Assembly (NCBI GenBank): GCA_027490195.1 | Contig: JAIXYN010000069.1 | Coordinates: 62,001-126,000 of the forward strand | Length of the DNA: 64,000 nucleotides | Reading direction: 5' to 3' | Source: Verrucomicrobiaceae bacterium | Lineage (GTDB): Bacteria; Verrucomicrobiota; Verrucomicrobiia; Verrucomicrobiales; Verrucomicrobiaceae | Part shown: one piece after another, positions 6,932 to 31,174 of the stretch | Position numbering within the stretch: the stretch's first letter is position 1 | How the letters are laid out: each line of letters begins with the position of its first letter | Made by a program: the position numbers and the translations under genes | Notes under the pieces: model-generated | Database searches by the model: none | Told to the model about the DNA's origin: nothing | What the model saw: the letters and a program-made list of their open reading frames with translations, nothing else

Positions 6932-8017
6932 TCACAGCGTATCCCCCCGGATCATCCGGGGCATCAAACGAATCGCTTTCGGGGGCAGGGTGCCTGCCTC
7001 AGCGAGCTGGCGCGCGGATTTGCACACGCTGCGGGCAAACTGGCCGGTGTTTGCGGCATAGCGGGTGATGGCAGGCACCGTGTGCTGGAGAAAGGTTTCG
7101 TCATCCCGCGAGATCACTGCGATGTCTTGCGGGATGCGTTTGCCTCTCTGCGTGAGATACATCATCACGGTGAGCACATGGATGGCACGGGCGACCACGT
7201 AAGCCGTCGGTGGCCGGACCGAGCGCAGCGCCTTTTCCAGCAGCGCGCAAAGATTGGCTGCAGTGCCATCATGGACGATCACTTGCAAGGTGGGCGCGTG
7301 GGTGCCGCCGAGCGCCTCGCGCAGCCCATGTTCGCTTTGCAGGTCACCCCCGTAATCACCGGCTGGCCGGATGAAAGCGATATGACGGTGGCCTTTGCCA
7401 CTGAGCATGCCGCCTGCATGCCGGCATAGCGCCCGGTAGTCGGCATCGATGGAGGGCAGGCTTATGCCGGGTGCGCAGGAGCCCACCACGAGGCAGGGAA
7501 GCTGGCGCCGCAAGAACCAGCTCTGCACCGGCTCCAGTGAGCCAAACAGCAGCCAGGCCGCCGCAGGTGACCGGGAGGTCAGAGCTTCCAGCGCACGTGC
7601 TGGCGTGGAGGAAAAGCACGCGGTGCTCACATGGATCTCAAAGCTGAAGCCGACACGGGAAAGCTGATCGCGCAAATCATCCACCATCACCACCGTCGAA
7701 GGGGACATTTCCAGCAACGGACGAGGGGAGATGAGCGCGATCACCCGGTCATGCACCGCAGTCTGCTCTTTCACATCTGCTTTGATGCGCCGCCGCTGTC
7801 TGTCGGACACTTCCAAAAAACCATCGCGTTCCAGCTCATGCAGTGCGGCACGCAGCGTGTGGCGGCTCACCTGCAGGCGAGTGCATAGCTCCCTCTCCCC
7901 TGGCAGATGGCCGCGCCAGTGCCCGGCCTGCATGGACTCGCGCAGACTCTGCGCCGTCAGGCTGACCAGGGAAATGCGTTGCGGCAGTCTGGGACTTGAG
8001 GAGGGGGCCGGTTTCAT
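6932..8017 (-). CDS. GntR-type winged-helix / LacI-type sensor transcriptional regulator
   Basis: 361 residues. A GntR-like winged helix lies at about residues 17-80 (GERELCTRLQVSRHTLRAAL is the recognition helix region) and is followed by a type-1 periplasmic-binding-protein sensor fold from about 95 to the end (KGHRHIAFIRP, IAVISRDDETFL). This is the layout of AraR/XylR-like sugar regulators. The start at 8017 (MKPAPSSS) is preferred over upstream ATGs at 8044 and 8086, because the bases just upstream (8018-8038) are an operator that recurs at four other operon heads and so should be non-coding. The operator touching its own start codon indicates autoregulation. The effector is probably a sugar or sugar acid. 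Confidence 0.85.
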   Translation of the reverse strand: MKPAPSSSPRLPQRISLVSLTAQSLRESMQAGHWRGHLPGERELCTRLQVSRHTLRAALHELERDGFLEVSDRQRRRIKADVKEQTAVHDRVIALISPRPLLEMSPSTVVMVDDLRDQLSRVGFSFEIHVSTACFSSTPARALEALTSRSPAAAWLLFGSLEPVQSWFLRRQLPCLVVGSCAPGISLPSIDADYRALCRHAGGMLSGKGHRHIAFIRPAGDYGGDLQSEHGLREALGGTHAPTLQVIVHDGTAANLCALLEKALRSVRPPTAYVVARAIHVLTVMMYLTQRGKRIPQDIAVISRDDETFLQHTVPAITRYAANTGQFARSVCKSARQLAEAGTLPPKAIRLMPRMIRGDTL

Positions 8018-8038
8018 CTGGTTTGGACAACAGACCAG
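8018..8038. promoter_or_regulatory. operator copy 2, divergent and autoregulatory
   Basis: 21 bp: CTGGTTTG, then GACAAC, then AGACCAG. It abuts the regulator start codon (8017, minus strand) with no gap and lies 46 bases before the RraA-like gene at 8085. One site can therefore control both directions. Confidence 0.85.
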
Positions 8039-8084
8039 AATCATGACGTTGTGACAAATCGTTTCAGCAGCCTGTTTGCTTTCC

Positions 8085-8846
8085 ATGTCTCCAAACGCGC
8101 GCCCCCTCTCGCATAGCGACCTGCTTCAGCTCAAACGCTGGAATACTCCCACGATCTACAACGGCTGGGAGCAGATCACCCGGCACAATGCGGGCGCTGA
8201 CGCCTTCAACATCGAGGAAACTCGCGACTTCATGCCGCAGATGGGACCCATGGTTGGCTACGCCGTCACCCTGGTGATCGAGCCCTCAAACGCCGCGCAT
8301 CGCCAAATGAATCCCAACGCCGGGGCTGAGTTCCGTCGTTACATCGCCAGCATGCCGGGGCCGAAGATCATCGTCGTGCAGGATCTCGACAAACCCCGCG
8401 TGCTCGGCTCCGCCTGGGGTGAGGTCAGCGCCAACATGTTTCGCGCCCTCGGCTGCGTGGGCACCATCACGGATGGAGCCATTCGCGATCTCGATGAGAT
8501 GACCAACGCTGGCTTCAAGGCGCTCGCACGCCGTCTCTGCGTCGGTCACGCCTTCGTGCATCCTGTGCGCTGGGGCTGTGAGGTCGAAGTCTTTGGCCGT
8601 ACCGTCAAGCCGGATGATCTCATCCATGCCGACAAGCACGGCTTCATGGTCATTCCTCCCGAAGACCAGCCCAAACTGCTCGAAGCCGCCCGCTTCATGG
8701 ATGCCAACGAATGCGCCACAGTCATCCCCGCCGCCCGTGAGGGCGCAGGCCGCAGCAGCGACGAACTCCTCTCCAGTCTCGAAGACAGCATCACTCAGTT
8801 CAGTGCCAACGTGAAAAGTCAGTTCTCCCGCCAGGGCGAGTGGTAA
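8085..8846 (+). CDS. RraA-like protein (HMG aldolase / demethylmenaquinone methyltransferase-like fold)
   Basis: A 253-residue protein of the RraA superfamily. The signature segment GCVGTITDGAIRDLDEM contains the G-x3-D and R-D residues that bind Mg and the substrate carboxylate in HMG/CHA aldolases. Those enzymes cleave 4-hydroxy-4-methyl-2-oxoglutarate-type acids to pyruvate and a second keto acid; other members are not enzymes of that type. The ATG at 8085 starts MSPNARPLSH; a TTG nine bases upstream is less likely. It heads a plus-strand operon under operator copy 2. In this context an aldolase or decarboxylase acting on a sugar-derived keto acid is plausible but unproven. Confidence 0.75.
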   Translation: MSPNARPLSHSDLLQLKRWNTPTIYNGWEQITRHNAGADAFNIEETRDFMPQMGPMVGYAVTLVIEPSNAAHRQMNPNAGAEFRRYIASMPGPKIIVVQDLDKPRVLGSAWGEVSANMFRALGCVGTITDGAIRDLDEMTNAGFKALARRLCVGHAFVHPVRWGCEVEVFGRTVKPDDLIHADKHGFMVIPPEDQPKLLEAARFMDANECATVIPAAREGAGRSSDELLSSLEDSITQFSANVKSQFSRQGEW

Positions 8847-10166: not shown

Positions 10167-10982
10167 ATGAGACGCTCCAAAGTCCTCGCCAAAATTCGTG
10201 CTGGCCAAGTCGCCCGCATCTGCTGCACCGGTTCGCCCATAGCCTTCTTCCCGGCCATCGCCGCTCACTTCAAATACGACGGCATCTGGCTCGACGCAGA
10301 GCACCGCGTGTGGGACCCGCGTGAAGCCGAAACCATGCTGGGCCGTCATCATGCCGCAGATATTGACTGCATGTGGCGTCCGCCTACCAAGGAAAAGAAC
10401 AGCCTCTACCGCCTCCTCGAAGATGGCGCAGCCGGCTTGATGATCCCCCACGTCGGCAGTGCGGATGAAGCCCGCGCTTTGGTCAACGCCATCAAATTTC
10501 CACCCCTTGGAGATCGCGGCTTTTGCGGTGGTGGCCGCGATGCGGACTACTGGATCGGCAAGCCTGACGACTACACCGATCAAGCCAATCGTGAGACCTT
10601 CCTCACCGTGCAGATCGAGAATCCCGCAGCCCTCGCCAACGCCGAAGAGATCGCCGCCGTGCCCGGTGTGGACATTCTCTTTCTCGGTCCGGGCGACATG
10701 TCCCTGCGCCTCGGCTGCTCGCCTGCGGTGAATGATCCTGTCATGCTCGATGTGCAAAAGCAAATCGCTGCTGCCTGCCGCAAGCATGGCAAGACCTGGG
10801 GCCGCCCCGTTGGCTCCGCAGCAGATGCAAAAACGATCATCGAACTCGGCTCACAATTCGTGGTGCTCGGTAGCGAGTTCGGCGCGCTGCATGCGCACCT
10901 CAGTGCCTGCGCTGCCGACTTCGACAGCGTCCTGAGCGATGTCTCCAATGCGGGTGTGATCCCAGCCGGTAAAACCTACTGA
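10167..10982 (+). CDS. HpcH/HpaI-family class II aldolase
   Basis: A 271-residue TIM-barrel protein of the HpcH/HpaI aldolase family. Seen in order are DGIWLDAEHRVWD near residue 40, GLMIPHVGSADEARALV, the VQIENPAAL strand carrying the metal-ligand Glu, and LFLGPGDMSLRLG. Characterised members cleave 2-keto-3-deoxy acids to pyruvate and an aldehyde. A second family member is at 28420-29229 in the same regulon, with clearly different sequence, so the two may handle different intermediates. It starts seven bases after the SGNH gene. The reaction type is well supported; the substrate is unknown. Confidence 0.85.
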   Translation: MRRSKVLAKIRAGQVARICCTGSPIAFFPAIAAHFKYDGIWLDAEHRVWDPREAETMLGRHHAADIDCMWRPPTKEKNSLYRLLEDGAAGLMIPHVGSADEARALVNAIKFPPLGDRGFCGGGRDADYWIGKPDDYTDQANRETFLTVQIENPAALANAEEIAAVPGVDILFLGPGDMSLRLGCSPAVNDPVMLDVQKQIAAACRKHGKTWGRPVGSAADAKTIIELGSQFVVLGSEFGALHAHLSACAADFDSVLSDVSNAGVIPAGKTY

Positions 10983-10992
10983 TTCATCTGTC

Positions 10993-11727
10993 ATGAAAGC
11001 CAGCGCACAACTCCTCGCCGATTATGAACGCGACGGCGTCGTGCTCATCCGTCAATTCCTCAGCGCTGGCGAAGTGGCCGCTGTGCGCGCCGAACTGGAG
11101 CGCTACATTCGCGATGATCTCAGCGCGCAGCCCGTTGATGCCCGCACTTTTGAAAAGGATGACAAGACCGTGCGCAATCTCTGGCGCTTGGAGAAATACA
11201 ACGAGTGGTTCCGCCAACTTGGCGAACGGCAAGACATCCGCGCGCTCGTCGCTCCACTGGTGCATGGCGAACCGGTGCTGGTCGGTGTCGAGACCTTCAA
11301 CAAGCCCGCCCGCATCGGCTCCGGCGTGCCGTATCATCAGGACAACGCCTACTTCTGCCAGACTCCGCCGGACATGCTCACAGTCTGGATCGCCATTGAT
11401 GCAGTCACGGAGGCGAATGGTCCGGTGTTCTTCGTCAAAGGTTCTCACCGAGATGGAATGCAACCCACCAAGCCCAGTGGCGTGCGCGGCAACAGCATCG
11501 GCTTGGCCGCACCCTCCAGCGTGCCTCTCGCTGAGCAGTTCTGCGGTCTCCTTGCTCCGGGGGATGCGACGATTCATCAGTGCGAGACGATTCACCACTC
11601 TGCGCCCAACACGACGGACTTTGCCCGCCTTGGCCTGCTTCTTGTATATCGCGGCATCCACACACAGACCGATCCGGCTCTTAAAACCGCCTACGCTGCG
11701 GCTGTCGCCACCACACCGCCCGCATGA
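10993..11727 (+). CDS. phytanoyl-CoA dioxygenase (PhyH) family protein
   Basis: A 244-residue Fe(II)/2-oxoglutarate oxygenase of the PhyH family. The metal triad can be read as H115-x-D117 in VPYHQDNAYF and the distal His in ETIHHSAPN (201/202), followed by the 2-oxoglutarate-binding Arg in ARLGLLLVYRG. Bacterial members hydroxylate varied small molecules, including methylated or modified compounds. In this operon it may hydroxylate or demethylate the sugar or an acyl or amino substituent. It overlaps the start of the next gene by four bases (ATGA), so the two are translationally coupled. Confidence 0.85.
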   Translation: MKASAQLLADYERDGVVLIRQFLSAGEVAAVRAELERYIRDDLSAQPVDARTFEKDDKTVRNLWRLEKYNEWFRQLGERQDIRALVAPLVHGEPVLVGVETFNKPARIGSGVPYHQDNAYFCQTPPDMLTVWIAIDAVTEANGPVFFVKGSHRDGMQPTKPSGVRGNSIGLAAPSSVPLAEQFCGLLAPGDATIHQCETIHHSAPNTTDFARLGLLLVYRGIHTQTDPALKTAYAAAVATTPPA

Positions 11728-14788: not shown

Positions 14789-16300
14789 ATGAAGCTCACC
14801 CTATGCATCCTCAGCGCTCTGGTGCTCCCGCTCCATGCAACTGAGCAGGTATTCTTTGCCTTTGATGATCACAACATCGCCTGGCAGCATAATTTGAAGC
14901 TGACGTTGGAGACGGCGCAGAAGCATCCGGGGAATCCCGTGCTGCGCAGCGGGCCTCCAGGATCACCTGATCATGGTCATGCCGTTTTGTATGGCACCGT
15001 GCTCAAGCAGGGCGACACCTTTCGCATGTGGTATCTCGGCATGCATGAACCGAAGATCGAAAAAGGCCAGGCACCCGGCTGGTGGCGGCCCATGTGCTAC
15101 GCCGAAAGCAAGGACGGCGTGACGTGGACCAAGCCCGATCTCGGCCTTGTGGAGTTCAATGGCAGCACCAAGAACAACATCTGCCGAATCGAGGGCGATC
15201 CCTATTCAATGACGCGCGTGAATGATTTCCTCTCGGTGCTTTACGAGCCCGAGGAACCGGACGCCGCGAAGCGCTACAAGTGTGCTTTTATTGCGCACAT
15301 GCCATTTGATGAGGTCAAAGGCGGCCGCAGCAAGGTCGGGCCTAACGAGAAACGCTGGGCCTCTTTTGTCACTGCCACGAGCGCCGATGGTTTGCAATGG
15401 AACTGCGTCGGCGACCGTCCCGCCAATGCGGGAGGCGAGCGCTTTGAAGTGAGCGGCCTCTATCGCTTCGGTGACTTCTATTATGCCACCGGCCAGTTGC
15501 TCAGTCCCTGGTCATGGCGGCCTGATGGCAGCGACATCGGTCGCGACATGCTCGCCTATCGTTCCCCCGACTTCGTGTCGTGGTCAAAGGCGAAGGCCTT
15601 CTGCTATGCGCGTCCCGGCCAGATGTCCAATCCCTCGGTCAAAGGCCAGCAGATGCACATGGGCGCAGGCTTGTGGAATCGCGGCAACGTCATGGTCGGT
15701 CTGCACGGCATGTGGCAGGATGCAGAGCAGCCACCACCCAAGGGTCAGAGCTGGAACTACGGCGTGCACGTTGATCTCGGCCTGCTCATCAGCAACGACG
15801 GTGTCCATTTTCGCGAACCAGTGCCCGGTTTCACCATCATTCCACGTGGCAAAGACGGCGAGTGGGACAACGTCGCCATTCTGCAAGGCCACGCCTTTGT
15901 GAATGAAGGAGACAAGACCATGATCTGGTATTCCCACTGGGACACCAGCGGCGTTCTTGAGCACATGGATATCGGCCTCGCCACACTCCGGCGCGATGGT
16001 TTTGGCTCGCTCTCCCGCAAGGTCCCAGAGGAAGAAGGCCACTTCATCACCAGTCCTTTAAATGCCAAAGAGATCGCCTTGAACGTGGATGGCAATGTGC
16101 CCGAGACTCCGCTCACCGTACAACTCCTGGACAATCTGGATCATCCGCTTGATGGCTATGAGGCGAAAGTCCGCACCAACGGCGTGCATGAGTCCATCAC
16201 GTGGCCCAAGCCTCTGCCCTCAGGCAAAAAAATCGCCCTGCGCGTGAACTTTCCAGCGGGCAGTGCCGCCAAGGTCTATGGCATCTACCTCAACCACTGA
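14789..16300 (+). CDS. secreted five-bladed beta-propeller glycosidase-like protein (GH32/43/130-type)
   Basis: 503 residues with a signal peptide (MKLTLCILSALVLPLHA). The body shows repeated propeller-blade features of GH43/GH32-like folds: GTVLKQGDTFRMWYLG, CYAESKDGVTWTKPDLGL, ATSADGLQWNCVG and LISNDGVHFREPVPG. The short sequence D-G-V/L-x-W/F at the end of blades is typical for this fold, as in Asp-box-like hydrolases. I cannot assign the three acidic catalytic residues with certainty. It heads the operon under operator copy 3, and an amidohydrolase-aminotransferase fusion follows six bases later. Confidence 0.7.
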   Translation: MKLTLCILSALVLPLHATEQVFFAFDDHNIAWQHNLKLTLETAQKHPGNPVLRSGPPGSPDHGHAVLYGTVLKQGDTFRMWYLGMHEPKIEKGQAPGWWRPMCYAESKDGVTWTKPDLGLVEFNGSTKNNICRIEGDPYSMTRVNDFLSVLYEPEEPDAAKRYKCAFIAHMPFDEVKGGRSKVGPNEKRWASFVTATSADGLQWNCVGDRPANAGGERFEVSGLYRFGDFYYATGQLLSPWSWRPDGSDIGRDMLAYRSPDFVSWSKAKAFCYARPGQMSNPSVKGQQMHMGAGLWNRGNVMVGLHGMWQDAEQPPPKGQSWNYGVHVDLGLLISNDGVHFREPVPGFTIIPRGKDGEWDNVAILQGHAFVNEGDKTMIWYSHWDTSGVLEHMDIGLATLRRDGFGSLSRKVPEEEGHFITSPLNAKEIALNVDGNVPETPLTVQLLDNLDHPLDGYEAKVRTNGVHESITWPKPLPSGKKIALRVNFPAGSAAKVYGIYLNH

Positions 16301-16305
16301 CACCA

Positions 16306-18588
16306 ATGTCTCTCAAGCTCGTCACCGAACTCAACGACACCGACCGCAAGCTGTTGCATCGTGCGATAGACGGCTTTGTGCCTGAACAAGTCTTTGATGT
16401 TCACACGCACCTGTTTCACTCGCGCCATTTTGCAGCGGGAAAACGCCCGGTGTTTCTCGATGAAGACCGTGGCTACGGCATGACTGATTTTCAAGCGGCC
16501 ATGCAGCTCTGGCTGCCGGGTCGGCAGGTAGAGGGACTGTTCTTCGGTTATCCCAGCGCTGGCAATGACCGCGCTGGAGAAAATGCCTGGCTACAGTCGC
16601 AGGTGGATGCGAGCGCGAACTCCCGCGCTCTCGTCCTCGCCGCACCAACGGATGATCCGGCGGAGGTGCGGCGGCTCTTGAGCACTGGCACGTTTGTCGG
16701 CATCAAGCCCTACCGCCTGTACGCTGATGTTCCTGATACCAAAGAAGCAGAGATCGAATCCTTCGCCCCGGAGTGGATGTGGGAGCTGTGCCATGAACAC
16801 GATGGCATCATGATGCTGCACATCATGCTCGCAGACGGCATCACAGACCCGCGCAATGTATCTGCCATCCGGCGCCTATGCCGCCGCTACCCGCGTTGCA
16901 AGCTCGTGCTGGCCCATGTCGCGAGGTCATTTAACTACCGACACGCCCGCGAAGGCCTTCATCACCTCGTTGATCTGGACAATGTCGTTGTGGACACCTC
17001 CGCCGTCACACAAGCCGGAGCCTTCCGCGCCGCGCTGGAGATCCTCGGCCCGCGCCGCGTTCTCTGGGGCAGCGATTACATGGTCAGCGAGTTGCGCGGC
17101 TCCTGCATCACGCAGGGCGATGGCTTCACCTGGATTCATCCCGAGATCACTGGGGACAAACTGACCATTTTTGGCCAGTACACCACCGTGGGCATCGAGT
17201 CCCTCCTCTGTCTCCGGGAGGCCTGTGAAGACACCGGCATGACGCAGAGCGATCTGGAAGACATCTTCCGCGAGAATGCACTGCGCCTTCTCAAACCCGC
17301 CCCGGCGATTCCCTCCGGCCCCCAGCTCTGGGAAAAGGCCAAGACCAAAATTTCCTGCGGCACCGGCCTCCTTTCCAAGCGCGCGCATCTCTTCGATCCC
17401 CAATCCTGGCCCTCCTATTTCTCTCGTGCCAAAGGCGCTCACATCTGGGATCTCAATGACAAACGCTACACTGACTTCACCGGTGGCGTCGGGGCCATCC
17501 TGCTCGGTCATGCCGATGATGAAGTGAATGCCGCCGTGAAGCGCCGCGTCAATCTCGGCAGCTACGCCACTCTGGCATCACCGGATGAGGTGAAACTGGC
17601 GGACGTGCTGCTCGACCTCCATCCATGGGCCGGCAAGGTTCGCTACGCACGCGGCGGTGGCGAGGCCCTCGGTCTCGCAGTGCGCATCGCCCGCGCGGCT
17701 ACCGGCAAAAGCGGCATCGCCTTCTGCGGCTACCACGGCTGGAGCGACTGGTATCTCGCGGCAAACCTTAGCGATGACGCCGCTCTCGACGGCCATCTGC
17801 TTCCCGGCCTGCAACCCCTCGGAGTACCGCGCGAGCTCGCAGGAACCGCCGTGCCCTTTCGCTACAATGATCCCGCTTCCTTTCAGGCGGCCATGCACAA
17901 GCTAGACGGAAATCTCGCGGCTGTCGTCATGGAGCCCATGCGCTCCGAACTCCCGCGCGATGGCTTCCTGCAGCACGTCATTGAGGCCTGCCACTCCGCC
18001 GGAGCCGTTTTTGTGTTGGATGAAGTCACTAGCGGCTGGCGCTTCGGCTTTCCTGGTGCCGCTCCTGGGTTGGGGATTGAGCCCGACATCTCCGTGTATG
18101 CCAAGGCGATGAGCAACGGCTACCCCGCCGGTGCCATCATCGGCAAAAACGCGGTCATGGATGCCGCAAACAGCAGCTTCATCTCCAGCAGCTACTGGAC
18201 CGATGGAGTCGGCACCGCCGCCTCTTTGGCCTGCATCCGTAAAATGCAGCGCGAGGGTGTGCAGCAGCACGTTTGGCATCTGGGCGAGCGCCTACAGTCA
18301 GGCTTGCGTGATGTCGCAGCAAGGCATCCCGACTTGCAATGCAAAGTGGGCGGCATGCCCTGCGCTCCATCGCTCGCTTTTGCCATTCCAGCGGCGAAGC
18401 AGCACATGATTCGCCACATGCTCCAGCGCGGCTTTTTGATGTCCAGCCAGCTCTATGTCACCTGGTCCCACACCGAAACCATGCTGGACGAAATGCTGGC
18501 GGCTCTGGATGAATCACTTCACATTGTCGTCGAGACTCCGCTGGACACCGCACATGCACCGCCACAAGGCTTTGCACGGCTGGTATGA
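16306..18588 (+). CDS. fusion protein: amidohydrolase (TIM barrel) + class III aminotransferase
   Basis: A 760-residue cytoplasmic protein of two complete enzyme domains. Residues about 10-350 are an amidohydrolase-2-like barrel with the metal motif H33-T-H35 in FDVHTHLFH, a His in LVLAHVARSF, and D257 in LWGSDYM. Residues about 370-750 are a PLP class III aminotransferase closest in look to glutamate-1-semialdehyde aminomutase: GYHGWSDWY, VLDEVTSGWRFG, and the Schiff-base Lys600 in YAKAMSNGYPAGA. The ATG at 16306 is used because upstream in-frame sequence overlaps the previous gene. The fusion suggests that the product of a hydrolysis step (for example a keto or semialdehyde acid) passes to a transamination or aminomutase step. 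A sequencing error joining two genes is unlikely, because the frame is continuous through the linker. Confidence 0.85.
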   Translation: MSLKLVTELNDTDRKLLHRAIDGFVPEQVFDVHTHLFHSRHFAAGKRPVFLDEDRGYGMTDFQAAMQLWLPGRQVEGLFFGYPSAGNDRAGENAWLQSQVDASANSRALVLAAPTDDPAEVRRLLSTGTFVGIKPYRLYADVPDTKEAEIESFAPEWMWELCHEHDGIMMLHIMLADGITDPRNVSAIRRLCRRYPRCKLVLAHVARSFNYRHAREGLHHLVDLDNVVVDTSAVTQAGAFRAALEILGPRRVLWGSDYMVSELRGSCITQGDGFTWIHPEITGDKLTIFGQYTTVGIESLLCLREACEDTGMTQSDLEDIFRENALRLLKPAPAIPSGPQLWEKAKTKISCGTGLLSKRAHLFDPQSWPSYFSRAKGAHIWDLNDKRYTDFTGGVGAILLGHADDEVNAAVKRRVNLGSYATLASPDEVKLADVLLDLHPWAGKVRYARGGGEALGLAVRIARAATGKSGIAFCGYHGWSDWYLAANLSDDAALDGHLLPGLQPLGVPRELAGTAVPFRYNDPASFQAAMHKLDGNLAAVVMEPMRSELPRDGFLQHVIEACHSAGAVFVLDEVTSGWRFGFPGAAPGLGIEPDISVYAKAMSNGYPAGAIIGKNAVMDAANSSFISSSYWTDGVGTAASLACIRKMQREGVQQHVWHLGERLQSGLRDVAARHPDLQCKVGGMPCAPSLAFAIPAAKQHMIRHMLQRGFLMSSQLYVTWSHTETMLDEMLAALDESLHIVVETPLDTAHAPPQGFARLV

Positions 18589-23317: not shown

Positions 23318-24292
23318 ATGATCATTGACTGTCACAACCACGTTGGCTCTGACCTGCTCTTTTACCTCCACGGCGATTTCCCCTATGCCCAGCACCTCGT
23401 GAGCATGCACGATGAAGGCCGCGCCCTCGGGGTGGACCGCTGGATCGTCTTCCCCTTTGTCAGTCATCTTGCGCTGGACGTCACCGTCTTCATGCAAAAC
23501 GAGATCAAGGATGAAAAGGGCCGCTTGCACGACATCCCGTATGCCTTTGAAAACAGACGTCTGATGAAGGAATGTTATGAGCTGTTTCCTGAGGAAGGGA
23601 AGCGCATGCTGCCGTTTGTGATGGCAGATCCCATGCGCAACACCGCCGCTCAGGAGAAAGAACTGCGCAAACTGCGTGGCGAATACCGCTTTTATGGCAT
23701 CAAGATGCAAACGACCATCCTCCAGGCGGACATCAAACATCTGCGGGACAGTGGCAAGGTCTTCGTGGAATTGGCCGCAGAATGGGACGTGCCGTTCTTG
23801 ATTCACTCCAGCGTTGCCAAGAGTGACTTGTGGGCTCAGGCGCATGACATCCTCGACATTGCGGAGGAAAATCCGCAGGTCCGTTTTTGCCTCGCACACT
23901 CATGCCGCTACGACAAAGAATGCCTCGACCGCGTGCAGGCGCTGCCAAACACCTGGTTCGACAACTCTGCGCACTGCATCCACTGCGAAGGCGTGGTCAA
24001 GGAATTGCCCTATGTCGCGCCGAAAGAGCGGCGCTTTGACTCGGATTACACCAATCCCGGCCGCGTCATCGCCGATCTGGCGGCGGCCTACCCTAAAAAG
24101 TTCATGTGGGGCAGTGACTCCCCGTTTTACAGTTACGCGGGGGAGATCAACGGGGAAGTCGTCCGCCTTATCAGCACCTATAAGGCCGAGGTTGATGCGT
24201 TGAAGGCTGGCGGAAGAGAAATGGTGGATCGCATTGCGAACGCAAACATCCGTGATTATTTGAAGTTGCATGATGAAAGCATTCTCTCTTGA
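23318..24292 (+). CDS. amidohydrolase (TIM-barrel, ACMSD/lactonase-like)
   Basis: A 324-residue protein of the amidohydrolase-2 family. The metal motif is H-x-H in IIDCHNHVG at residue 6-8; later come the strand FLIHSSV with a His, FCLAHSCRYDKE, and the Asp in FMWGSDSPF. Relatives include decarboxylases, lactonases acting on sugar acids, and hydratases. No signal peptide is present, so it acts in the cytoplasm. It is related in fold to the N-terminal half of the fusion protein at 16306 but differs in sequence. The next gene begins within its last 23 bases, so the two are coupled. Confidence 0.8.
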   Translation: MIIDCHNHVGSDLLFYLHGDFPYAQHLVSMHDEGRALGVDRWIVFPFVSHLALDVTVFMQNEIKDEKGRLHDIPYAFENRRLMKECYELFPEEGKRMLPFVMADPMRNTAAQEKELRKLRGEYRFYGIKMQTTILQADIKHLRDSGKVFVELAAEWDVPFLIHSSVAKSDLWAQAHDILDIAEENPQVRFCLAHSCRYDKECLDRVQALPNTWFDNSAHCIHCEGVVKELPYVAPKERRFDSDYTNPGRVIADLAAAYPKKFMWGSDSPFYSYAGEINGEVVRLISTYKAEVDALKAGGREMVDRIANANIRDYLKLHDESILS

Positions 24293-25031
24293 AGGTCGGG
24301 CCGCATTGGTGACAGGATCATCCCAAGGCATTGGATACGCGATGGCCAACGGCCTCCATGAGGCTGGAGCACGCTTGGTGTGCCATGGGCTCAACGAACG
24401 TCCCGTGGATTTTCCGGCGTGGGCCTCCTATCTCTCATGCGATTTATCCGCCCCGGACGCTCCTGAGCAGTTGGTGAAGCATGCCTTTGAAGCCGAGCCT
24501 GGCCTGGACACCCTCATCTGCAATGCCGGCAGTTTTTTTGATGTGCCATTCCTTGAGATGACGCGCGAGCGCTGGGACAAGACCGTGAATCTCAACATGG
24601 CTTCGGCTTTTTTCGCCGCACAGGCTTTTGCCCGGCGCCTCGTCGCAGAGAAACGGGGTGGCTGCATCGTCATCACTTCCTCCACCAACGGCTTTCAGGC
24701 AGAGTTGGATTCTACTGCGTATGATGCCAGCAAAGGCGCGCTCGTGATGCTGACGAAGTCGCTGGCCGTTTCTCTGGCAGATCATGGCATTCGTGTGAAC
24801 GGCGTGGCACCGGGACTGATCAGAACACCGCTCACGGCCGGACTTCATCATTCCAGCGACAGCGGCATGGTTGAGCACTATGAGAAGAAGATACTCCTTC
24901 AGCGGCTGGGTACACCGGAGGATGTGGCGGGTGCGGCGGTGTTTCTTTGCTCAGACGCAGCCAGTTACATTACTGGAGAGACCATTATCATTGATGGCGG
25001 TCTGACGACGGGACAGATCGGCCGGAGGTGA
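24270..25031 (+). CDS. SDR-family oxidoreductase (FabG-like)
   Basis: A 253-residue short-chain dehydrogenase. The cofactor motif is TGSSQGIG near residue 15, then CNAG, the Ser in VITSSTNGF, and the catalytic YDASK. It ends with ITGETIIIDGG. It overlaps the upstream amidohydrolase gene by 23 bases, and its 3' end overlaps the convergent symporter gene by 44 bases. A start one codon later (24273) is equally possible. It closes the operon that starts at 14789 and probably performs a redox step on the same substrate family. Confidence 0.85.
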   Translation: MMKAFSLEGRAALVTGSSQGIGYAMANGLHEAGARLVCHGLNERPVDFPAWASYLSCDLSAPDAPEQLVKHAFEAEPGLDTLICNAGSFFDVPFLEMTRERWDKTVNLNMASAFFAAQAFARRLVAEKRGGCIVITSSTNGFQAELDSTAYDASKGALVMLTKSLAVSLADHGIRVNGVAPGLIRTPLTAGLHHSSDSGMVEHYEKKILLQRLGTPEDVAGAAVFLCSDAASYITGETIIIDGGLTTGQIGRR

Positions 25032-26484
25032 GCAAGCCCACGGCCATGGTTATCAGCGTGCCCAGCAGGCTGAACCAGATGAAGGAGACAACCATCGGCG
25101 GCTTCAGGGCCGTGAAGGCACCGTTCTGATACATGAAGATGCCCAGCAGCGTGACAAAGCCTGCCAGACAGCCGAGCAGAGCGCCGCGCGTGGTGGCCCT
25201 GCGCGTGAACATGCCGAGAAAGAACAGCCCCAGCAGCGGTCCGCCAATAAGTCCGATGACGGTGTTCACGGACTCGACCAGATTTCCCGGCATAAATGAC
25301 ACCGCAAAGGCGAGTGCCACGACGATGACTCCGTAAATCACCGTGATCCAGCGTGCGCTGCCGACTTGCTGAGCCTGTGTCCCCTCCGGTGAGCTTGAGA
25401 GGCGTTGCTTGAAATCGACCACCGTGGCGGACGCCAAAGAATTCAGCCCGGCGGAAATCGTGGACATGCTGGCCGCGTAGATTGCCGCGATGAGCAGTCC
25501 CGGCAGCCCTGCTGGAAGCTGCGTCACGACGAAGTAGGGTAGGATTTGGTCTTCCTTGGCAATCAGTCCCGCCGCCATGGGATCGCCATGCGTTTTATAG
25601 AATGCGTAGAGCACCAGGCCGGTGCCATAAAACAGCACGAGGACCGGCAGGATGAACCAGAGCTTGAGCCACAGGGAGCGCTTTGCCTCCTGCAAGCTGC
25701 CCGCGCTGAGATAGCGCTGCACTGAAACTTGGTCGGTGGCCATCTGCACCAGATGCAGAAAGGCACCTGCCAGCACCACGCTCCAGATATTGACGCGCTC
25801 AGACAGACTGAAGGAAAGACTCAGGTTCATGCGGCCATCCGCCATGGCCGTGTCCCAGACTCCGCCCAGGCCGCCAGGGATCTTTCCGACCGCCACGAAC
25901 ACAATGATCAACTGACCACCGAAAAGCACGATCAACTGCATCACATCTGTCCAGATGACGGCGCGCATGCCGCCAAGCGCGGTGTAGAGTGTCGTCAGGA
26001 CACCCGTGGCGAGAATGGTGATCCACAACGGCATGCCGGTGACTTTTTCCAGTGCCAATGCAGGGGCGTAGGTGGCAGCGGCGAGCCACAGTGCGACACG
26101 AAAGATGAACAATCCAGAGGCAAGCAGGCGCACGGAGAGGGAAAACCGCTCCTCAAGAAACTGATAGGCGGTGAAGAAGCGCGACTGGTAAAACTTCGGC
26201 AGCATGTAAATCGCTGTGAACGGGGTCGCGATGAAGAACGCCAGAACGATGTAGGCAAAGCCAAAGCCGTTCTTGTACACATCCGCCGGACCGGCAAGGT
26301 AGCTGATGCCAGAAAACAATGCCGCCAGAATGGACATGGCGACCAGAACGCTGCTCATGCCACGACCCGCAAGAAAGTAGTCGCCAAGTGATTTGGACCC
26401 GCGTGCCGAAAATAAACCAATGCCGACCGATGCCGTGAGGTAGCTGCCGAAGATGGTGTAATCGAGCCAGGAGAAGTGCGTCAT
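24988..26484 (-). CDS. sodium:solute symporter (SSS family)
   Basis: 498 residues with about 13 hydrophobic helices. SSS features include the SLGDYFLAGRGMSSVLVAMSILAALFS region near the N terminus, TALGGMRAVIWTDVMQL, the conserved AAIYAASMSTISAGLNSLASATVVD, and GLIGGPLLGLFFLGMF. SSS members take up sugars, sugar acids, sialic acid or amino acids with Na+. It is placed under operator copy 4, 47 bases before its ATG, so it is the likely uptake system of this pathway. No TRAP or ABC system is seen in the cluster. The last 44 bases overlap the convergent SDR gene. Confidence 0.9.
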   Translation of the reverse strand: MTHFSWLDYTIFGSYLTASVGIGLFSARGSKSLGDYFLAGRGMSSVLVAMSILAALFSGISYLAGPADVYKNGFGFAYIVLAFFIATPFTAIYMLPKFYQSRFFTAYQFLEERFSLSVRLLASGLFIFRVALWLAAATYAPALALEKVTGMPLWITILATGVLTTLYTALGGMRAVIWTDVMQLIVLFGGQLIIVFVAVGKIPGGLGGVWDTAMADGRMNLSLSFSLSERVNIWSVVLAGAFLHLVQMATDQVSVQRYLSAGSLQEAKRSLWLKLWFILPVLVLFYGTGLVLYAFYKTHGDPMAAGLIAKEDQILPYFVVTQLPAGLPGLLIAAIYAASMSTISAGLNSLASATVVDFKQRLSSSPEGTQAQQVGSARWITVIYGVIVVALAFAVSFMPGNLVESVNTVIGLIGGPLLGLFFLGMFTRRATTRGALLGCLAGFVTLLGIFMYQNGAFTALKPPMVVSFIWFSLLGTLITMAVGLLTSGRSVPSSDRHQ

Positions 26485-26531
26485 AAATGGGCAGGGGATT
26501 GAAAATAAACGCAGTCTGGCGAAAGTGTTTG

Positions 26532-26552
26532 CTGGTTTGTTTTTAAGACCAG
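26532..26552. promoter_or_regulatory. operator copy 4, between the symporter and Kelch genes
   Basis: 21 bp: CTGGTTTG, then TTTTTA, then AGACCAG. Both arms are identical to those of copy 2. It lies 47 bases upstream of the symporter ATG (minus strand) and 59 bases upstream of the Kelch gene start (plus strand). Confidence 0.85.
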
Positions 26553-26611
26553 GTAAATGGGCGGGAAATCGGAAAGTTCAGCACGATGAACTGCGAACTG
26601 TAGAGCACACT

Positions 26612-27637
26612 ATGAATGCACGATTGATCCCGATGATGAAACGAGTTTTGAACACTTGGCTTGTGCTGTTTTCGTCACTCACCTGCGCTGTAAATGCCGC
26701 TGACTGGGAACCGCTGCCCCCGCTCCCGGAGCCGAACGGTGGCTTTGTGTGCGGAGTGCAAGGCGACTCCATTGTGGTTATTGGCGGAACGAACTGGGAA
26801 GGTGGCAAAAAAAACTGGCTAAAATTCATCCGGTACTTCGACTCACGCACTTTGAAATGGAGGTCTGAATTTGACGCGAAAATGCCCGGCGGGCCCCTGG
26901 CCTATGGAGTGTTGTGTCAGGGCAGCGATGTCGCCGTCACTGTGCTTGGAGGCACCGATGGAGAAAAGTCGCATCCAGAGTCGCTGTTGATTGATTCCAT
27001 CAAAACCTCGCAAGGATCGAAAATTCGAGGACTCACCGATACGGTCGTGCTTGCTGCGGGCGGACAAGTTTCGGGAAGACGATTGATCGTTGGAGGAATG
27101 AAGGATGCTGCCAATGTGTCAGAGATGGGAAAATCAGTGCATGAAATTGTATTCATCGACAAACCCTGGAAGGACCGGCACCTGCAAGCCATTCCTCTCG
27201 CCGACTACCCCGGCAAGCCCTTCGCCGTGGCTGCATCGGCGGTGGTGGGGGCCGAACTCTTTGTGTTCGGCGGGATGAATTATAATGCAACGACAAGCAC
27301 CCCGGTGAACTCCGTGGAATCCTATGCCTTTTCGCCAGCAAAAAATGCCTGGCGTGTGCTGAAGTCGCTCACGGTGGCAAATCGCGGCATGACCGCCGTC
27401 AGGCTTGATGATCAGCACATTTACCTTGCCGGTGGTTATACAGATGACTTCACGGCGAATGCCCTGATCTACGATGTGAAGGCGGACAGCTATCGAAAGG
27501 CGAAATCGCTGCCATATGCCGCGATGGTGGGTTTGGTGAAGCTTGACGGCTTTGTCTATTGCCTCGGTGGCGAAGACAAGAAGCAGTCACGCACCGACAA
27601 GGTCTTCCGCATTCCGGTGGCGGAACTGCTGAAGTGA
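26612..27637 (+). CDS. secreted Kelch-repeat beta-propeller protein (NanM-like mutarotase candidate)
   Basis: 341 residues with a signal peptide (MKRVLNTWLVLFSSLTCAVNA preceded by eight residues). A start at 26633 or 26636 is also possible. The mature part shows Kelch blades: DSIVVIGGTNW, VAVTVLGGTDG, RLIVGGMKD, ELFVFGGMNY, HIYLAGGYTD and FVYCLGGED. The repeated GG after a hydrophobic strand is the Kelch signature. Secreted Kelch proteins next to SSS or TRAP transporters include sialic-acid mutarotases (NanM). Here it shares operator copy 4 with a symporter, which supports a periplasmic role on the transported sugar, such as anomer or lactone conversion. The exact activity is unproven. Confidence 0.75.
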   Translation: MNARLIPMMKRVLNTWLVLFSSLTCAVNAADWEPLPPLPEPNGGFVCGVQGDSIVVIGGTNWEGGKKNWLKFIRYFDSRTLKWRSEFDAKMPGGPLAYGVLCQGSDVAVTVLGGTDGEKSHPESLLIDSIKTSQGSKIRGLTDTVVLAAGGQVSGRRLIVGGMKDAANVSEMGKSVHEIVFIDKPWKDRHLQAIPLADYPGKPFAVAASAVVGAELFVFGGMNYNATTSTPVNSVESYAFSPAKNAWRVLKSLTVANRGMTAVRLDDQHIYLAGGYTDDFTANALIYDVKADSYRKAKSLPYAAMVGLVKLDGFVYCLGGEDKKQSRTDKVFRIPVAELLK

Positions 27638-28414
27638 CTACTTCGCGGTGTAGCCGCCATCGACGGGGAGATTGACGCCGGTGATGTATTGGGACGCATC
27701 GCTGAGCAAGAAAATGACGGCACCGCCGAGATCACTCTCGCTGGCCATGCGTCCGAGCATGGTGTGCTCATTGTAGCGCTGCAAAAAGGGTTCGGGCTGG
27801 TGATTGAAAAAGCCACCGGCAGCTAGGTTGTTGACGCGGACTCCCTGCGGGCCGTAGAGGGCGGCGTAGAAGCGGGTGAGGTTTTCGATGCCGCCTTTGT
27901 GGAAGAAGTAATCGGGCGGCATGTCGCCCATGTTGGTGCCGGTGTAGAGTTCGTAGCTGGGACCGATCATGCCCTGAATGCTGCCGATGTTCACAATGCT
28001 GCCACGTCCTGCTGCGGCCATCGTCTGTCCAAAGTGACGGTGCATGAGCATGACGCCGGTGGCATTGACGCGCATGGATTCAGCAAATTGCTCCACCGTG
28101 CCATTCGCGCCTTTCATCGGACGCAGCACGGCGTTGTTCACCAAGCCATGCAATGCACCATGCTGCGCGGTGATGCGCTCATGTAGGGCCACCACGGAGG
28201 CTTCATCTCCCTGATCCAGCGTCTCGGCAAACACATGGTGTCCTTTCGCCGTTTCTTCCTCGGCGACGACCTGCAACTTGGCAACGTCACGCGAGGCGAG
28301 GATCAGCGTGGCACCTGTGTGCGCCAGCATGGCGGCCAACCCACGACCATAGAGGCCGGCACCGCCGGTGAGGAGGATGGTTTTGCCGTGGAGGGAGAAG
28401 AGGTCGGCGGACAT
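27638..28414 (-). CDS. SDR-family oxidoreductase
   Basis: 258 residues. The cofactor motif LTGGAGLYGRG is near residue 16-25, then NNAV, the Ser in IVNIGSIQG, and catalytic Tyr and Lys in DYFFHKGG. The C-terminal ITGVNLPVDGGYTAK is close to the end of the SDR at 6012 (ITGQNLAVDGGWTAW), so these two may be paralogues for the same or consecutive steps. It is the last gene of the minus-strand operon starting at 31174, five bases after the aldolase stop. Its end abuts the convergent Kelch gene. Confidence 0.85.
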   Translation of the reverse strand: MSADLFSLHGKTILLTGGAGLYGRGLAAMLAHTGATLILASRDVAKLQVVAEEETAKGHHVFAETLDQGDEASVVALHERITAQHGALHGLVNNAVLRPMKGANGTVEQFAESMRVNATGVMLMHRHFGQTMAAAGRGSIVNIGSIQGMIGPSYELYTGTNMGDMPPDYFFHKGGIENLTRFYAALYGPQGVRVNNLAAGGFFNHQPEPFLQRYNEHTMLGRMASESDLGGAVIFLLSDASQYITGVNLPVDGGYTAK

Positions 28415-28419
28415 GGCAG

Positions 28420-29229
28420 TTACTTGGATTTGTAAATGGAATCGCTGGCAGTCGCGGAGTCAGAGCCACCAAAATCACCGACTAGTTTTTTGAAGGCGTT
28501 ACCGAGTTCAATCACATCGGCGCCGAGGGTGAAGACGCGGGTGCCTTCGGCGATGACTTCTTCCTTCTGCCCGAAGAGCGAGGCAACGGCGGGAAATTTG
28601 CCGTACTTGAGTGCAGCGGCGGCGACTCGTTTGCGAGCGGCGACGACTTCGGGATGGGTGGCCTGGCCGAGCTTGCCGATGCGGTGGCTGAAGTCACCTG
28701 CACCAAAGAGCAGCATGTCGAATCCAGGCACAGCGGCGATCTCTTCGACGACTTCGAGCGCCTCGGGACTTTCGATCTGGAGGATGACGAATTTCTCGGT
28801 GTTGCAGTGATGTGCGTAATCCGCGAGGGGAACCTGGCAGAACAGGCCGTCCATGTTGCCTGCGTCCAGTGCCTTGCTTCCGAGCGGGCGGCAGCGAACC
28901 ATGTCCACCACATTGCGGGCTTCGTCGGCGCTGGTCACGTGGGGGACCATGATGCCGGTGGCATCGCATTCAAAAGGTTTCACATATTCGCTATAACCGC
29001 CTTTGTTGACGCGGACGATGGTGTCCAAGTCGTGGAGCTTGGCGGCGCGGACTTGGTGTTCCAGATTGAGCCAGGAGTTGGGGACGTGCTCGTTGCACAG
29101 CCAGACGGCGCTGGCGCCGGAGAGTCCGGCGAGCTCGACGATGCGGGGATCTCCTAAGTTGAGCTTGATGACGGTGCTGTTTTGGCCGGCGCGGAGTTCG
29201 CGGAGGATGCGGGAGGGGCGGAGTTTCAT
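28420..29229 (-). CDS. HpcH/HpaI-family aldolase (second copy)
   Basis: A 269-residue TIM-barrel aldolase. Family segments are SGASAVWLCNEHVPN (the position of the catalytic base region), GIMVPHVTSADEARNVV, the ILQIESPEALEVVEEI strand with the metal-ligand Glu, and LLFGAGDFSHRIG. It is clearly diverged from the copy at 10167, although AAVPG and PHVxSADEAR are shared. It probably cleaves a 2-keto-3-deoxy acid to pyruvate plus an aldehyde. It overlaps the upstream Gfo gene by four bases (ATGA), so translation is coupled to the dehydrogenases of this operon. Confidence 0.85.
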   Translation of the reverse strand: MKLRPSRILRELRAGQNSTVIKLNLGDPRIVELAGLSGASAVWLCNEHVPNSWLNLEHQVRAAKLHDLDTIVRVNKGGYSEYVKPFECDATGIMVPHVTSADEARNVVDMVRCRPLGSKALDAGNMDGLFCQVPLADYAHHCNTEKFVILQIESPEALEVVEEIAAVPGFDMLLFGAGDFSHRIGKLGQATHPEVVAARKRVAAAALKYGKFPAVASLFGQKEEVIAEGTRVFTLGADVIELGNAFKKLVGDFGGSDSATASDSIYKSK

Positions 29230-30188
29230 GTGTCGGATTCGGCAATAATGTCTGAGATTTGCATTAGCGCGCCACTTTGTTCGCGGCTGCGGCGACCGGC
29301 GATGATGACGGCCATGAGTTCGACGGTTTCGGCAAAGGGCAGGGGACGTGTGCCGGTTTGCAGCATGTCGATGAAGGCGACCAACTGGCCGCGGAAGGCG
29401 TGGTAGGTGTCGGTGAGGCGGAGGGGGAGCTGACCTTTTGTGCCGTAGAGATGGACGGCACCGAAGCTTCCATAGGCATCGTGAATGGCTCCGATGGTGA
29501 CGCGGACGCCGCTGCGATGGGTGAGGTGCATGACGTCGCCGCCGGAATCGCTGAGCGCCTGCACGGTGATGAAGCCGGGGCCGAGGAGGGGCTCGATGGC
29601 TTCGAGGGCGTGGATGCCATAGCGCTCCCAGGATTTGCAGGTGAAGCTGGTGATCCAGCGAAGGTCGCCGAGATGGGCGTGCTGTTCAGCGGTCAAGCGC
29701 ATCTCCGGCGCATAGCGCATGCCGCTGGTGGAGAGGATGCTGGCTCCGGCCTGATGCCACTGCACAAACTGGCGCAGGTCGGCGATGTTGGTAGCCATGG
29801 GCTTGTCCACGAAAACGGGCAGTCCGGCTTCAATAAAGGGGCGCACGCGGCGAATGTGATCGTCGCCATCGTCGGTGGAGATGATCACAGCATCGACCTG
29901 ACCGATGACGTCTTCGGGTTGAGAGACGATGGTGGGGATTAGGCTGGCGGCGGCGACTTTGGGGGCGTCGGTGGGATCATCGGTCCAGAGGTGGGTGACG
30001 CGAGCACCGGGGATCTGCATGGTGGCCAAGGGCTGCTGGCCGAGATAGGCGATGATGCCTGCGTAAGGACAGGCGGCCATGGCGATGGGGTCGTAGCCAT
30101 TGATGATGGCGCTCCATGAATAGGGGTGGCCATTGCCTTCGATCATGCCCAGCATGGCCAGGCGTAGTTGTTTGGGGCTGCTGCTCAT
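29226..30188 (-). CDS. Gfo/Idh/MocA-family oxidoreductase
   Basis: A 320-residue NAD(P)-dependent sugar oxidoreductase-like protein. The N-terminal Rossmann strand is degenerate (LRLAMLGMIEGNGHPYSW replaces GxGxxG). The family lysine is in VFVDKPMATN, a variant of the EKP motif, and the substrate-binding helix contains WERYGIHALE with the His. The altered cofactor loop and Asp-Lys-Pro motif separate it from the neighbour at 30185. It may have a changed cofactor mode or act as a lyase or isomerase. It overlaps both neighbours by four bases (ATGA) in the operon controlled from 31221. Confidence 0.8.
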   Translation of the reverse strand: MSSSPKQLRLAMLGMIEGNGHPYSWSAIINGYDPIAMAACPYAGIIAYLGQQPLATMQIPGARVTHLWTDDPTDAPKVAAASLIPTIVSQPEDVIGQVDAVIISTDDGDDHIRRVRPFIEAGLPVFVDKPMATNIADLRQFVQWHQAGASILSTSGMRYAPEMRLTAEQHAHLGDLRWITSFTCKSWERYGIHALEAIEPLLGPGFITVQALSDSGGDVMHLTHRSGVRVTIGAIHDAYGSFGAVHLYGTKGQLPLRLTDTYHAFRGQLVAFIDMLQTGTRPLPFAETVELMAVIIAGRRSREQSGALMQISDIIAESDT

Positions 30189-31174
30189 GAAAGGGTGATG
30201 GGCAGGCCAGTGACGGCAGAGTCGAGGGCGGCACGATTGAAGTGCAGAGTTTGCACGGCTTCGTCAAAGGTGCATAGAGCGCAGGGCTTGCCCTCCATGC
30301 CATCTAGGAAGGCGTTGGCCTGGGCGATGAAGAGGTCATCGCGTTCCAGTGGTGCGGTGGTGTTCCAGGTCCAGGCGGTCTCGCCGCGTTTCATGCTGGC
30401 CCAGCGCTGGGCGTGGGATTCGATCTTGAGGCTGCCGTGTTCGCAGTGGATTTCGATGATGGCTTCGTTGGCGGCTTGAAACTGGTTCATCGCGTAGCTG
30501 GCAAGCACGGTGCCGTGACGAGCGGTGACGTTGACGGTGTCTTCGACGGTCACGCCTTCGAGTTGCTGATGTGAGGCATCGCAGAAGACGCGGGTGATGG
30601 GGCCGATCATCCACTCCATGGCGTTCACGATGTGAGTGAGCGCGTCCTGGATGGCACCGCCGCCGGTTTCATGACGTGCGTAGTAGATGTCGCGATAGGC
30701 GGGTCGGTAGGTGGGGAAGTGCTGGCCGGCCGCAATGCTGGCGTGAAGTGGTTTGCCCAAGGCACCGCTTTGTAAAAACTCACGCGCTGCGATAATCCAC
30801 GGGAAGCAGTGGTAAACGTAGGCGATGGCTACGAAACGGCCGCTTGTGGTGATGGCGGTGCGCGTTTGTTCCAGGCCGTCCAAGGTAACTGAAAGAGGCT
30901 TTTCGATCAGCAGAGCCGCGCCGTGGGCAGCGCCTTCGCGGGCGATGCTGAGATGGGTGTGGGCAGGGGTGCAGATGACCCAGGCATCGAAGTTCTGTGA
31001 GTGGGCCGCTTCTGCGAGGGTGCTGAACGAAGGGACATTGTAGCGTTGGCTGACTTCGCTCAGCAGTTTTGCATTGGCATCACAGACGCTGACGTGGCAG
31101 CGGCCAGTCTGCTGAAAGCAGCGCAGATGGCGCTCGCCGATGCTGCCGCAGCCAATGATGAGGATGGAATGCAT
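30185..31174 (-). CDS. Gfo/Idh/MocA-family dehydrogenase
   Basis: 329 residues. The classical Rossmann entry is LIIGCGSIGERHL at residues 4-16, the catalytic EKP motif is in LIEKPLSV, and the substrate helix GGGAIQDALTHIVNAMEW carries the conserved His. Enzymes of this family oxidise or reduce a sugar ring hydroxyl with NAD(P). It is the first gene of a four-gene minus-strand operon (Gfo, Gfo, aldolase, SDR). Operator copy 5 is 46 bases upstream of its ATG. It probably catalyses an early oxidation of the imported sugar; the substrate is unknown. Confidence 0.9.
   Translation of the reverse strand: MHSILIIGCGSIGERHLRCFQQTGRCHVSVCDANAKLLSEVSQRYNVPSFSTLAEAAHSQNFDAWVICTPAHTHLSIAREGAAHGAALLIEKPLSVTLDGLEQTRTAITTSGRFVAIAYVYHCFPWIIAAREFLQSGALGKPLHASIAAGQHFPTYRPAYRDIYYARHETGGGAIQDALTHIVNAMEWMIGPITRVFCDASHQQLEGVTVEDTVNVTARHGTVLASYAMNQFQAANEAIIEIHCEHGSLKIESHAQRWASMKRGETAWTWNTTAPLERDDLFIAQANAFLDGMEGKPCALCTFDEAVQTLHFNRAALDSAVTGLPITLS

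Follow-up and report, generated by a model that had tools for sequence, protein, structure and literature searches.

Members of the amidohydrolase superfamily bind metal through a common ligand set (an HxH motif, two further histidines and an aspartate), and the cog3618, LigI and decarboxylase members of Amidohydro_2 share one barrel fold; cog3618 includes L-fucono-lactonase. Among the class III aminotransferases, which depend on pyridoxal phosphate (PLP), FumI acts on hydrolysed fumonisin as a single-domain enzyme, and others stand in pseudaminic acid (pse) islands, among genes for nonulosonic (sialic-acid-like) sugars. Biosynthetic steps on such sugars are described for EpaA (CTP_transf_3 fused to aldo/keto reductase) and EpaB (a short-chain dehydrogenase/reductase, SDR), which turn pseudaminic acid into 8-epipseudaminic acid; the pair includes neither an aminotransferase nor an amidohydrolase (PMC12053666). 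Here we describe a gene that joins an amidohydrolase barrel to a class III aminotransferase in one polypeptide. It lies in a stretch of 64,000 nucleotides (the window) from a Verrucomicrobiaceae bacterium (GenBank assembly GCA_027490195.1, contig JAIXYN010000069.1), and its sequence and surroundings argue that the product is very probably a bifunctional catabolic enzyme.

An earlier note on this DNA had reported a single continuous frame of 760 residues with an amidohydrolase barrel and an aminotransferase. Translation of the window bore this out (16306 to 18588, plus strand, no internal stop), as did Pfam, in which both domains exceeded their cut-offs: Amidohydro_2 (PF04909) at residues 31–329 with 79.2 bits (cut-off 26.4) and Aminotran_3 (PF00202) at residues 371–681 with 140.7 bits (cut-off 30.5). 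The mechanical open reading frame begins at a GTG at 16201, ahead of the ATG at 16306. The ATG was preferred as the start because it lies 5 nucleotides past the upstream stop and because same-genus orthologues align from its residue 1. The gene and its domains are as follows.

16306 to 18588, plus strand: fused amidohydrolase and class III aminotransferase, 760 residues (translation, Pfam, alignment, full-length model)
16384 to 17304, plus strand: Amidohydro_2 TIM-barrel domain, about residues 27–333 (Pfam, alignment, domain model)
17314 to 18540, plus strand: class III PLP aminotransferase domain, about residues 337–745 (Pfam, alignment, fold match to FumI)

The AlphaFold2 model of the full-length protein showed two domains, with a predicted local distance difference test (pLDDT) score of 85.4 and a predicted template modelling score of 0.82. 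Residues 494–501 and 749–760 had pLDDT values below 50, and confidence was also low in the inter-domain region, at about residues 331–360. Since a fold search with the whole model told little about the barrel, that domain was also modelled alone (pLDDT 93.3).

The fusion was conserved among relatives. Matches at E <= 1e-50 were found in 25 of 56 genomes (its own, 34 of the same genus and 21 of the same order) and were missing from the other 31. A single match covered both domains in 23 of the 25; in G004 two matches fell inside one open frame of 803 residues, and in G020 the gene was interrupted by contig ends, so that one open frame held both domains in 24 of the 56. A scan of named contigs gave 78 distinct loci from the best 80 of 205 relatives, and in all 78 the two domains shared one frame, which in three (L047, L052 and L053) was truncated at the edge of the contig. 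The hosts included Prosthecobacter and other Verrucomicrobia, Brevifollis, Arenibacter (Bacteroidota), many Planctomycetes and one member of the Lentisphaerae. That an assembly or frame error had united two unrelated genes might be argued from four genomes which carry the domains as separate genes. These counts of intact single frames, with the 25th genome cut by contig ends, rule such an error out and leave it practically no probability. The earlier note had named two-gene forms plus an assembly error as what could undo the fusion; the two-gene forms do exist, but many intact fusions stand alongside them and there is no error here.

Both active sites were conserved as well. Among 79 aligned proteins, barrel residues H33, H35, K134, H172, H204 and D257 were invariant in every row that covered them, as were Y476, H477, E543, D572, K600, W631 and T632 of the PLP domain. 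The invariant set thus contains all the metal ligands of an Amidohydro_2 protein (H33, H35, H172, H204 and D257) and the lysine and aspartate of a class III aminotransferase (K600 and D572). H33, H35, D257 and K600 lay at the positions given in the earlier note, and the loss of either site among orthologues, which it had considered, occurred in none of the 79. This invariance indicates that the two sites are retained together. The structure alignment (A1) took in 55 of the 79 proteins.

In the phylum at large, 70 of 288 sampled genomes matched the alignment at E <= 1e-60, many with one half only. In the family of an Arenibacter genome (G336), 8 of 299 genomes matched at E <= 1e-110, and one of the 8 was fused, so that fused and single forms are both rare there. 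A plasmid search with the whole fusion matched 24 records, none over 80% of its length, and the 10 best of the 24 matched the aminotransferase half only. Two phage records carried aminotransferase relatives at 28–29% identity. Separately, one fusion copy (L112; G222:C24:379-2760) had three in-frame stops and is perhaps decayed, and copies 64–87% identical to that of the window lay on contigs labelled Bosea or Akkermansia muciniphila (L047, L033, L046, L056 and L077), labels that are probably due to misbinned or mislabelled metagenome-assembled genomes.

The four genomes with two-gene forms (L134, L135, L136 and L190) carried the genes next to each other on the same strand. The amidohydrolase came first in L134 and L135 (2-nucleotide gap) and in L136 (8-nucleotide overlap); in L190, from a planctomycete-centred search, the aminotransferase came first, with a gap of 6 nucleotides by mechanical starts. 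The barrels of L134 to L136 were 28–29% identical to that of the window and retained the metal-site residues. Proteins that are fused in some genomes and encoded side by side in others usually serve one pathway, and the two activities are linked here with or without fusion. A further 31 loci held the aminotransferase without an adjacent barrel, 20 of them with a cytidine monophosphate (CMP)-transferase gene and 11 without. Neighbours of the 11 included NeuB (2), a transporter of the SSF family (2), an HpaI aldolase (2) and an SDR (4), and in six of them (L145–L148, L150 and L188; genomes G107, G143, G193, G280, G300 and G476) the same genome had a barrel match of 245–408 bits elsewhere. The aminotransferase of L147 was part of a 761-residue frame that has a further N-terminal part. 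In G476 the amidohydrolase (L189:4671-5789) and the aminotransferase (L188:9911-11227) were on different contigs, the former about 3 kb from a PseC-like gene.

The closest solved fold of the PLP half was that of the FumI aminopentol aminotransferase (PDB 6hbs and 6hbv; Z 42.1, root-mean-square deviation 2.0 over 397 residues, 29% identity). Glutamate-semialdehyde (GSA) aminomutases were also among its fold relatives, with Z up to 40.0, and Amidohydro_2 includes decarboxylases. Both points fit the example given in the earlier note, namely decarboxylation or ring opening to a semialdehyde and then amino transfer or 1,2-amino migration. We consider that route improbable: FumI was the nearest fold, the GSA-aminomutase models listed scored far under their cut-offs (PRK06209, 213 of 486 bits; PRK00062, 191 of 398; hemL, 184 of 527), and the gene context was amino-sugar-like, with no tetrapyrrole or aromatic genes seen among the neighbours scanned. 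On these scores, the FumI fold and the occurrence of relatives in nonulosonic-acid clusters, identity as a GSA aminomutase is not supported. Other parts of the earlier interpretation, that a single chain carries two complete active sites and that their reactions follow one another, are retained and agree with the adjacent genes of the split forms.

The substrate class was approached through the non-fused aminotransferases, which were 41–47% identical to the fused half by blastp (14 loci, including three split pairs). Gene labels in the neighbourhood comparison come from one-seed profiles made for this analysis (E<1e-8), which are not curated models. The 20 CMP-transferase loci carried NeuB (17), aldo/keto reductase (16), PseC (14) and PseG (9); SSF transporter, HpaI aldolase and amidohydrolase genes were each found in 0 of the 20. 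A recurring order was PseC, aldo/keto reductase, CMP-transferase, aminotransferase and sometimes PseG, with exceptions. At L140, NCBIfam models identified PseC (448 bits, cut-off 423.5) and PseG (228 bits, cut-off 153.6), and the locus also held a CTP_transf_3 gene and an aldo/keto reductase. In eight loci (L151, L185, L192–L196 and L198) the CMP-transferase and the aminotransferase were labelled within one frame; the one of these scanned with Pfam (L151:8677-10704) had both domains, and a gene labelled PseC, PseG or NeuB lay within the retrieved stretch at seven of the eight. These fusions possibly belong to makers of 8-amino-nonulosonic acids. NeuB was present in all eight genomes with biosynthetic-type aminotransferases that were searched.

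A similar arrangement was found on plasmid pSMR1-1 of Pseudosulfitobacter pseudonitzschiae, where a class III aminotransferase protein of 677 residues, 43.4% identical to the aminotransferase half of the fusion, stood in the order pseB, pseC, aldo/keto reductase, GNAT, hypothetical protein, aminotransferase, pseG and pseI. Such PRK06209-like pse-island aminotransferases are like the fused half in sequence and in clade-specific residues, but occur without an amidohydrolase and with NeuB, PseC or PseG. The Aeromonas flagellar islands are likened to this group by description only. A relative 49% identical to the biosynthetic aminotransferase (L214) lay amid DegT, GNAT and Gfo/Idh genes on a plasmid of Halorussus aquaticus.

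The biosynthetic loci share their kinds of partner (CTP_transf_3 with aldo/keto reductase, and SDR) with EpaA and EpaB. Since that pair acts at C8 of pseudaminic acid, a ketone at C8 is a plausible product or substrate of such partners and presumably the intermediate of the epimerisation itself, and a class III aminotransferase beside them would, by analogy, aminate the ketone to give 8-amino-nonulosonic acids. An acid of this kind is reported from the O-polysaccharide of Flexibacter maritimus (PMC3210612).

A tree of the aminotransferase domain (73 rows) was built from a selection of the sequences. Thirty-nine fused proteins were entered (the window, 34 of the 78 loci, L152, L153, L191 and L202) and 38 were kept; L044 (12% filled), L147 (too short), L150 and three distant aminotransferases of the window's own genome were left out. 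Twenty fusions from Verrucomicrobia, Arenibacter and G750 formed one clade (support 100/100). A block of 25 rows (98/91) held the planctomycete, Lentisphaerae and Opitutaceae fusions with three split pairs and four single forms, and the biosynthetic forms made up another block of 25 (93/95), 22 of them biosynthetic by context. The joining of the blocks was weakly supported (82/33), and because L190 joined near the outgroup by a long branch its placement is unsure. This tree, whose root is insecure, requires the fused label to change three times or more, which either repeated fusion or splitting would explain. Comparison of 42 amidohydrolase-linked with 22 biosynthetic rows gave 21 columns common to both (>= 93% in each) that no more than one of the five outgroup rows shared; R359, W441, W479, N487, R546, W631 and T632 belong to these. 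At the thresholds applied, none of the columns told the two sets apart. This suggests, from sequence comparison, that the amidohydrolase-linked and biosynthetic aminotransferases act on the same substrate class.

The neighbours of the fused genes were of a different kind. The 78 fused loci carried SDR (32), SSF transporter (30), a family of 503-residue proteins (29), HpaI aldolase (21), a second Amidohydro_2 protein (17), Gfo/Idh of B type (16), PhyH (14), Kelch (14), BNR sialidase-like protein (9), Gfo/Idh of A type (7) and aldo/keto reductase (5), all of them lower bounds, as many of the loci lie on truncated contigs. NeuB, CMP-transferase and PseG were found in none and PseC in one of the 78 stretches fetched, which does not agree with membership in a nonulosonic biosynthesis cluster. 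With SSF, HpaI, SDR and Gfo/Idh genes present and NeuB or CMP-transferase in 0 of 78, the neighbours point to sugar uptake and breakdown and not to nonulosonate biosynthesis. A biosynthetic role, in which the fused enzyme adds an amine to a cell-surface sugar, could appeal to the unfused relatives in biosynthetic clusters, to the reversibility of transamination and to the presence of NeuB somewhere in 17 of 32 fusion genomes. It is nonetheless very improbable given the 0 of 78 counts, against 17, 20 and 9 of 20 CMP-transferase loci for NeuB, CMP-transferase and PseG (the second circular, as these loci were chosen on it), the SSF transporter (30 of 78 against 0 of 20) and the missing amidohydrolase in the latter group. 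The two groups differ in phylum, which makes the Fisher values for such contrasts indicative only. Moreover, NeuB was not found at E <= 1e-20 in 15 of the 32 fusion genomes, that of the window included; of two further fused genomes, one lacked NeuB and one had a weak match.

The reaction of the barrel was harder to name. The best fold match was cog3618 (4do7; Z 21.7, tied with several), and the leading matches also included IDCase (4lak; 21.1), Atu3138 (4mup; 20.9) and LigI (4di9; 20.6), so that lactonases, decarboxylases and uncharacterised amidohydrolases headed the list with Z scores about 1 unit apart. Because matches of differing reactions tie, the fold does not distinguish an amidase from a lactonase or decarboxylase. 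These proteins have the same barrel as the fusion, at 13–18% identity in the rows listed, and the fusion has the superfamily metal set; a profile search of PDB sequences gave five weak matches. A sugar-lactonase role fits several of these data: a Gfo/Idh or SDR enzyme would oxidise a (diamino)deoxy sugar to a lactone, the barrel would open it, the PLP domain would deaminate the amino-aldonate and an HpaI aldolase would cut the product. The top matches include cog3618, Atu3138 and the LigI pyrone hydrolase, and the neighbours of the fusion include dehydrogenases of the Gfo/Idh and SDR families as well as an HpaI aldolase. The tie of the decarboxylase IDCase with the lactonases tells against this role, as does the lack of an identified sugar-acid dehydratase among the neighbours scanned, and we regard it as unlikely, if worth keeping in view.

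Because the unfused relatives sit among biosynthesis genes for sialic-acid-like sugars, we favour a role in the breakdown of such sugars. The fusion may be a bifunctional catabolic enzyme for an amino-nonulosonic-type sugar, in which the hydrolase unmasks an amine and the transaminase removes it, a reading from sequence to which we give a little less than even weight. The substrate would be a nonulosonic sugar acid (sialic-acid-like, pseudaminic-type) with an amino group, for which, by analogy with the relatives, the case is evenly balanced. The barrel would act first and unmask the amine by hydrolysis, most likely of an N-acyl amide; this is the weakest step. The freed amine would then form an aldimine with Lys600 and be transaminated to a ketone, the reverse of the presumed biosynthetic direction of the relatives. 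N-deacylation followed by deamination is a tentative assignment, made by analogy. The ketone would be reduced by the neighbouring SDR and aldo/keto or Gfo/Idh reductases, and an HpaI-type aldolase would split the 2-keto-3-deoxy acid into pyruvate and an amino-deoxy sugar. Taken whole, this would amount to an undescribed catabolism of amino-nonulosonic acids (8-amino-pseudaminic or legionaminic type) in Verrucomicrobia, Planctomycetes and Arenibacter, running the last biosynthetic steps in reverse, with HpaI-type cleavage replacing the classical lyase; as a complete scheme it is doubtful.

Several observations weigh against the breakdown of amino-nonulosonic acids by N-deacylation. Most of the Amidohydro_2 members that have been characterised are lactonases, decarboxylases, hydratases or C–C hydrolases, not N-deacylases, and the titles of the barrel fold matches agree with this bias. 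In the 17 fusion genomes with NeuB, the gene is on another contig or more than 1 Mb away, and because of these genomes the fusion-bearing organisms are not all non-makers. BNR and Kelch proteins occur in a minority of the fused loci, many of which are truncated, and BNR (2 of 20), SDR (4 of 20) and B-type Gfo/Idh (2 of 20) were found in CMP-transferase loci too, so that these three discriminate poorly. Aldo/keto reductase, a reductase of the proposed pathway, was in 5 of 78 fused against 16 of 20 CMP-transferase loci. G066, a genome with a biosynthetic-type locus, had a 212-bit barrel match elsewhere, and 3 of the 25 rows of the biosynthetic block (L144, L148 and L188) lacked biosynthetic neighbours, which shows that context can change within a clade.

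The earlier note knew of no described enzyme with this domain order, and we found none either. No PDB chain spanned both domains among the best 60 of 154 and the best 50 of 1,760 matches, nor did any NCBIfam model among the best 25 of 72, and no description of this fusion or of amino-nonulosonate catabolism was found among the papers listed in literature searches, judged from titles and the beginnings of abstracts. Each domain comes from a known family, and the combination and the likely pathway appear new. In bacteria that make sialic-acid-like sugars this aminotransferase lineage is found joined to a CMP-sugar synthetase-type domain, and in those that probably consume them its partner is a hydrolase. 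The proposal narrows the substrates of an unassigned enzyme, spread over several phyla, to a defined class and gives a handle on the possible recycling of bacterial-surface nonulosonic acids by environmental bacteria. It also opens the part played by class III aminotransferases in pseudaminic islands to experiment.

The surroundings of the fusion in the window contained the following features; Rfam gave no match in the window at gathering thresholds.

6932 to 8086, minus strand: divergent regulator with GntR-type and LacI-type similarity (weak matches, all those shown below cut-off)
8076 to 8846, plus strand: RraA-like protein (Pfam)
10167 to 10982, plus strand: HpcH/HpaI-family aldolase (Pfam, 90.3 bits)
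10993 to 11727, plus strand: PhyH-family dioxygenase (Pfam)
14789 to 16300, plus strand: 503-residue protein, stop 5 nucleotides before the fusion (family in 29 of 78 fused loci)
23318 to 24292, plus strand: second, stand-alone Amidohydro_2 protein (Pfam; relatives in 17 of 78 fused loci)
24270 to 25031, plus strand: SDR dehydrogenase (NCBIfam)
24988 to 26484, minus strand: SSS-family sodium/solute symporter (NCBIfam, 261 against a cut-off of 184; relatives in 30 of 78 fused loci)
26525 to 27637, plus strand: Kelch protein (NANM, N-acetylneuraminate epimerase, model 57.4 bits, cut-off 45)
27638 to 28414, minus strand: SDR dehydrogenase (NCBIfam)
28420 to 29229, minus strand: second HpcH/HpaI aldolase (profile scan)
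29226 to 30188, minus strand: Gfo/Idh/MocA oxidoreductase (profile scan)
30185 to 31174, minus strand: Gfo/Idh/MocA oxidoreductase (profile scan)

The Kelch protein and the symporter give the window the NanM-like mutarotase and SSF-type transporter of a sialic-acid-type catabolic locus, the best stretch of the NANM match spanning only positions 42–141 of the 350 in the profile; the aldolases found in the window are of the HpcH/HpaI type. The 503-residue protein matched neither Pfam (E <= 0.001) nor any PDB sequence (E <= 1). Its family stood directly upstream of the fusion in 16 of 79 loci (the window counted) and may represent a new kind of glycan hydrolase. Upstream of the fusion in Arenibacter (L072) lay an SSF symporter, SDRs, an aldo/keto reductase, a BNR protein and a Gfo/Idh gene; a conserved Arenibacter protein of 318 residues (L072:7173-8129) likewise gave no match in Pfam or among PDB sequences at these limits. 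At L071 sulfatases were present as well. The genome of the window held four HpcH/HpaI matches in all, two of them within this cluster.

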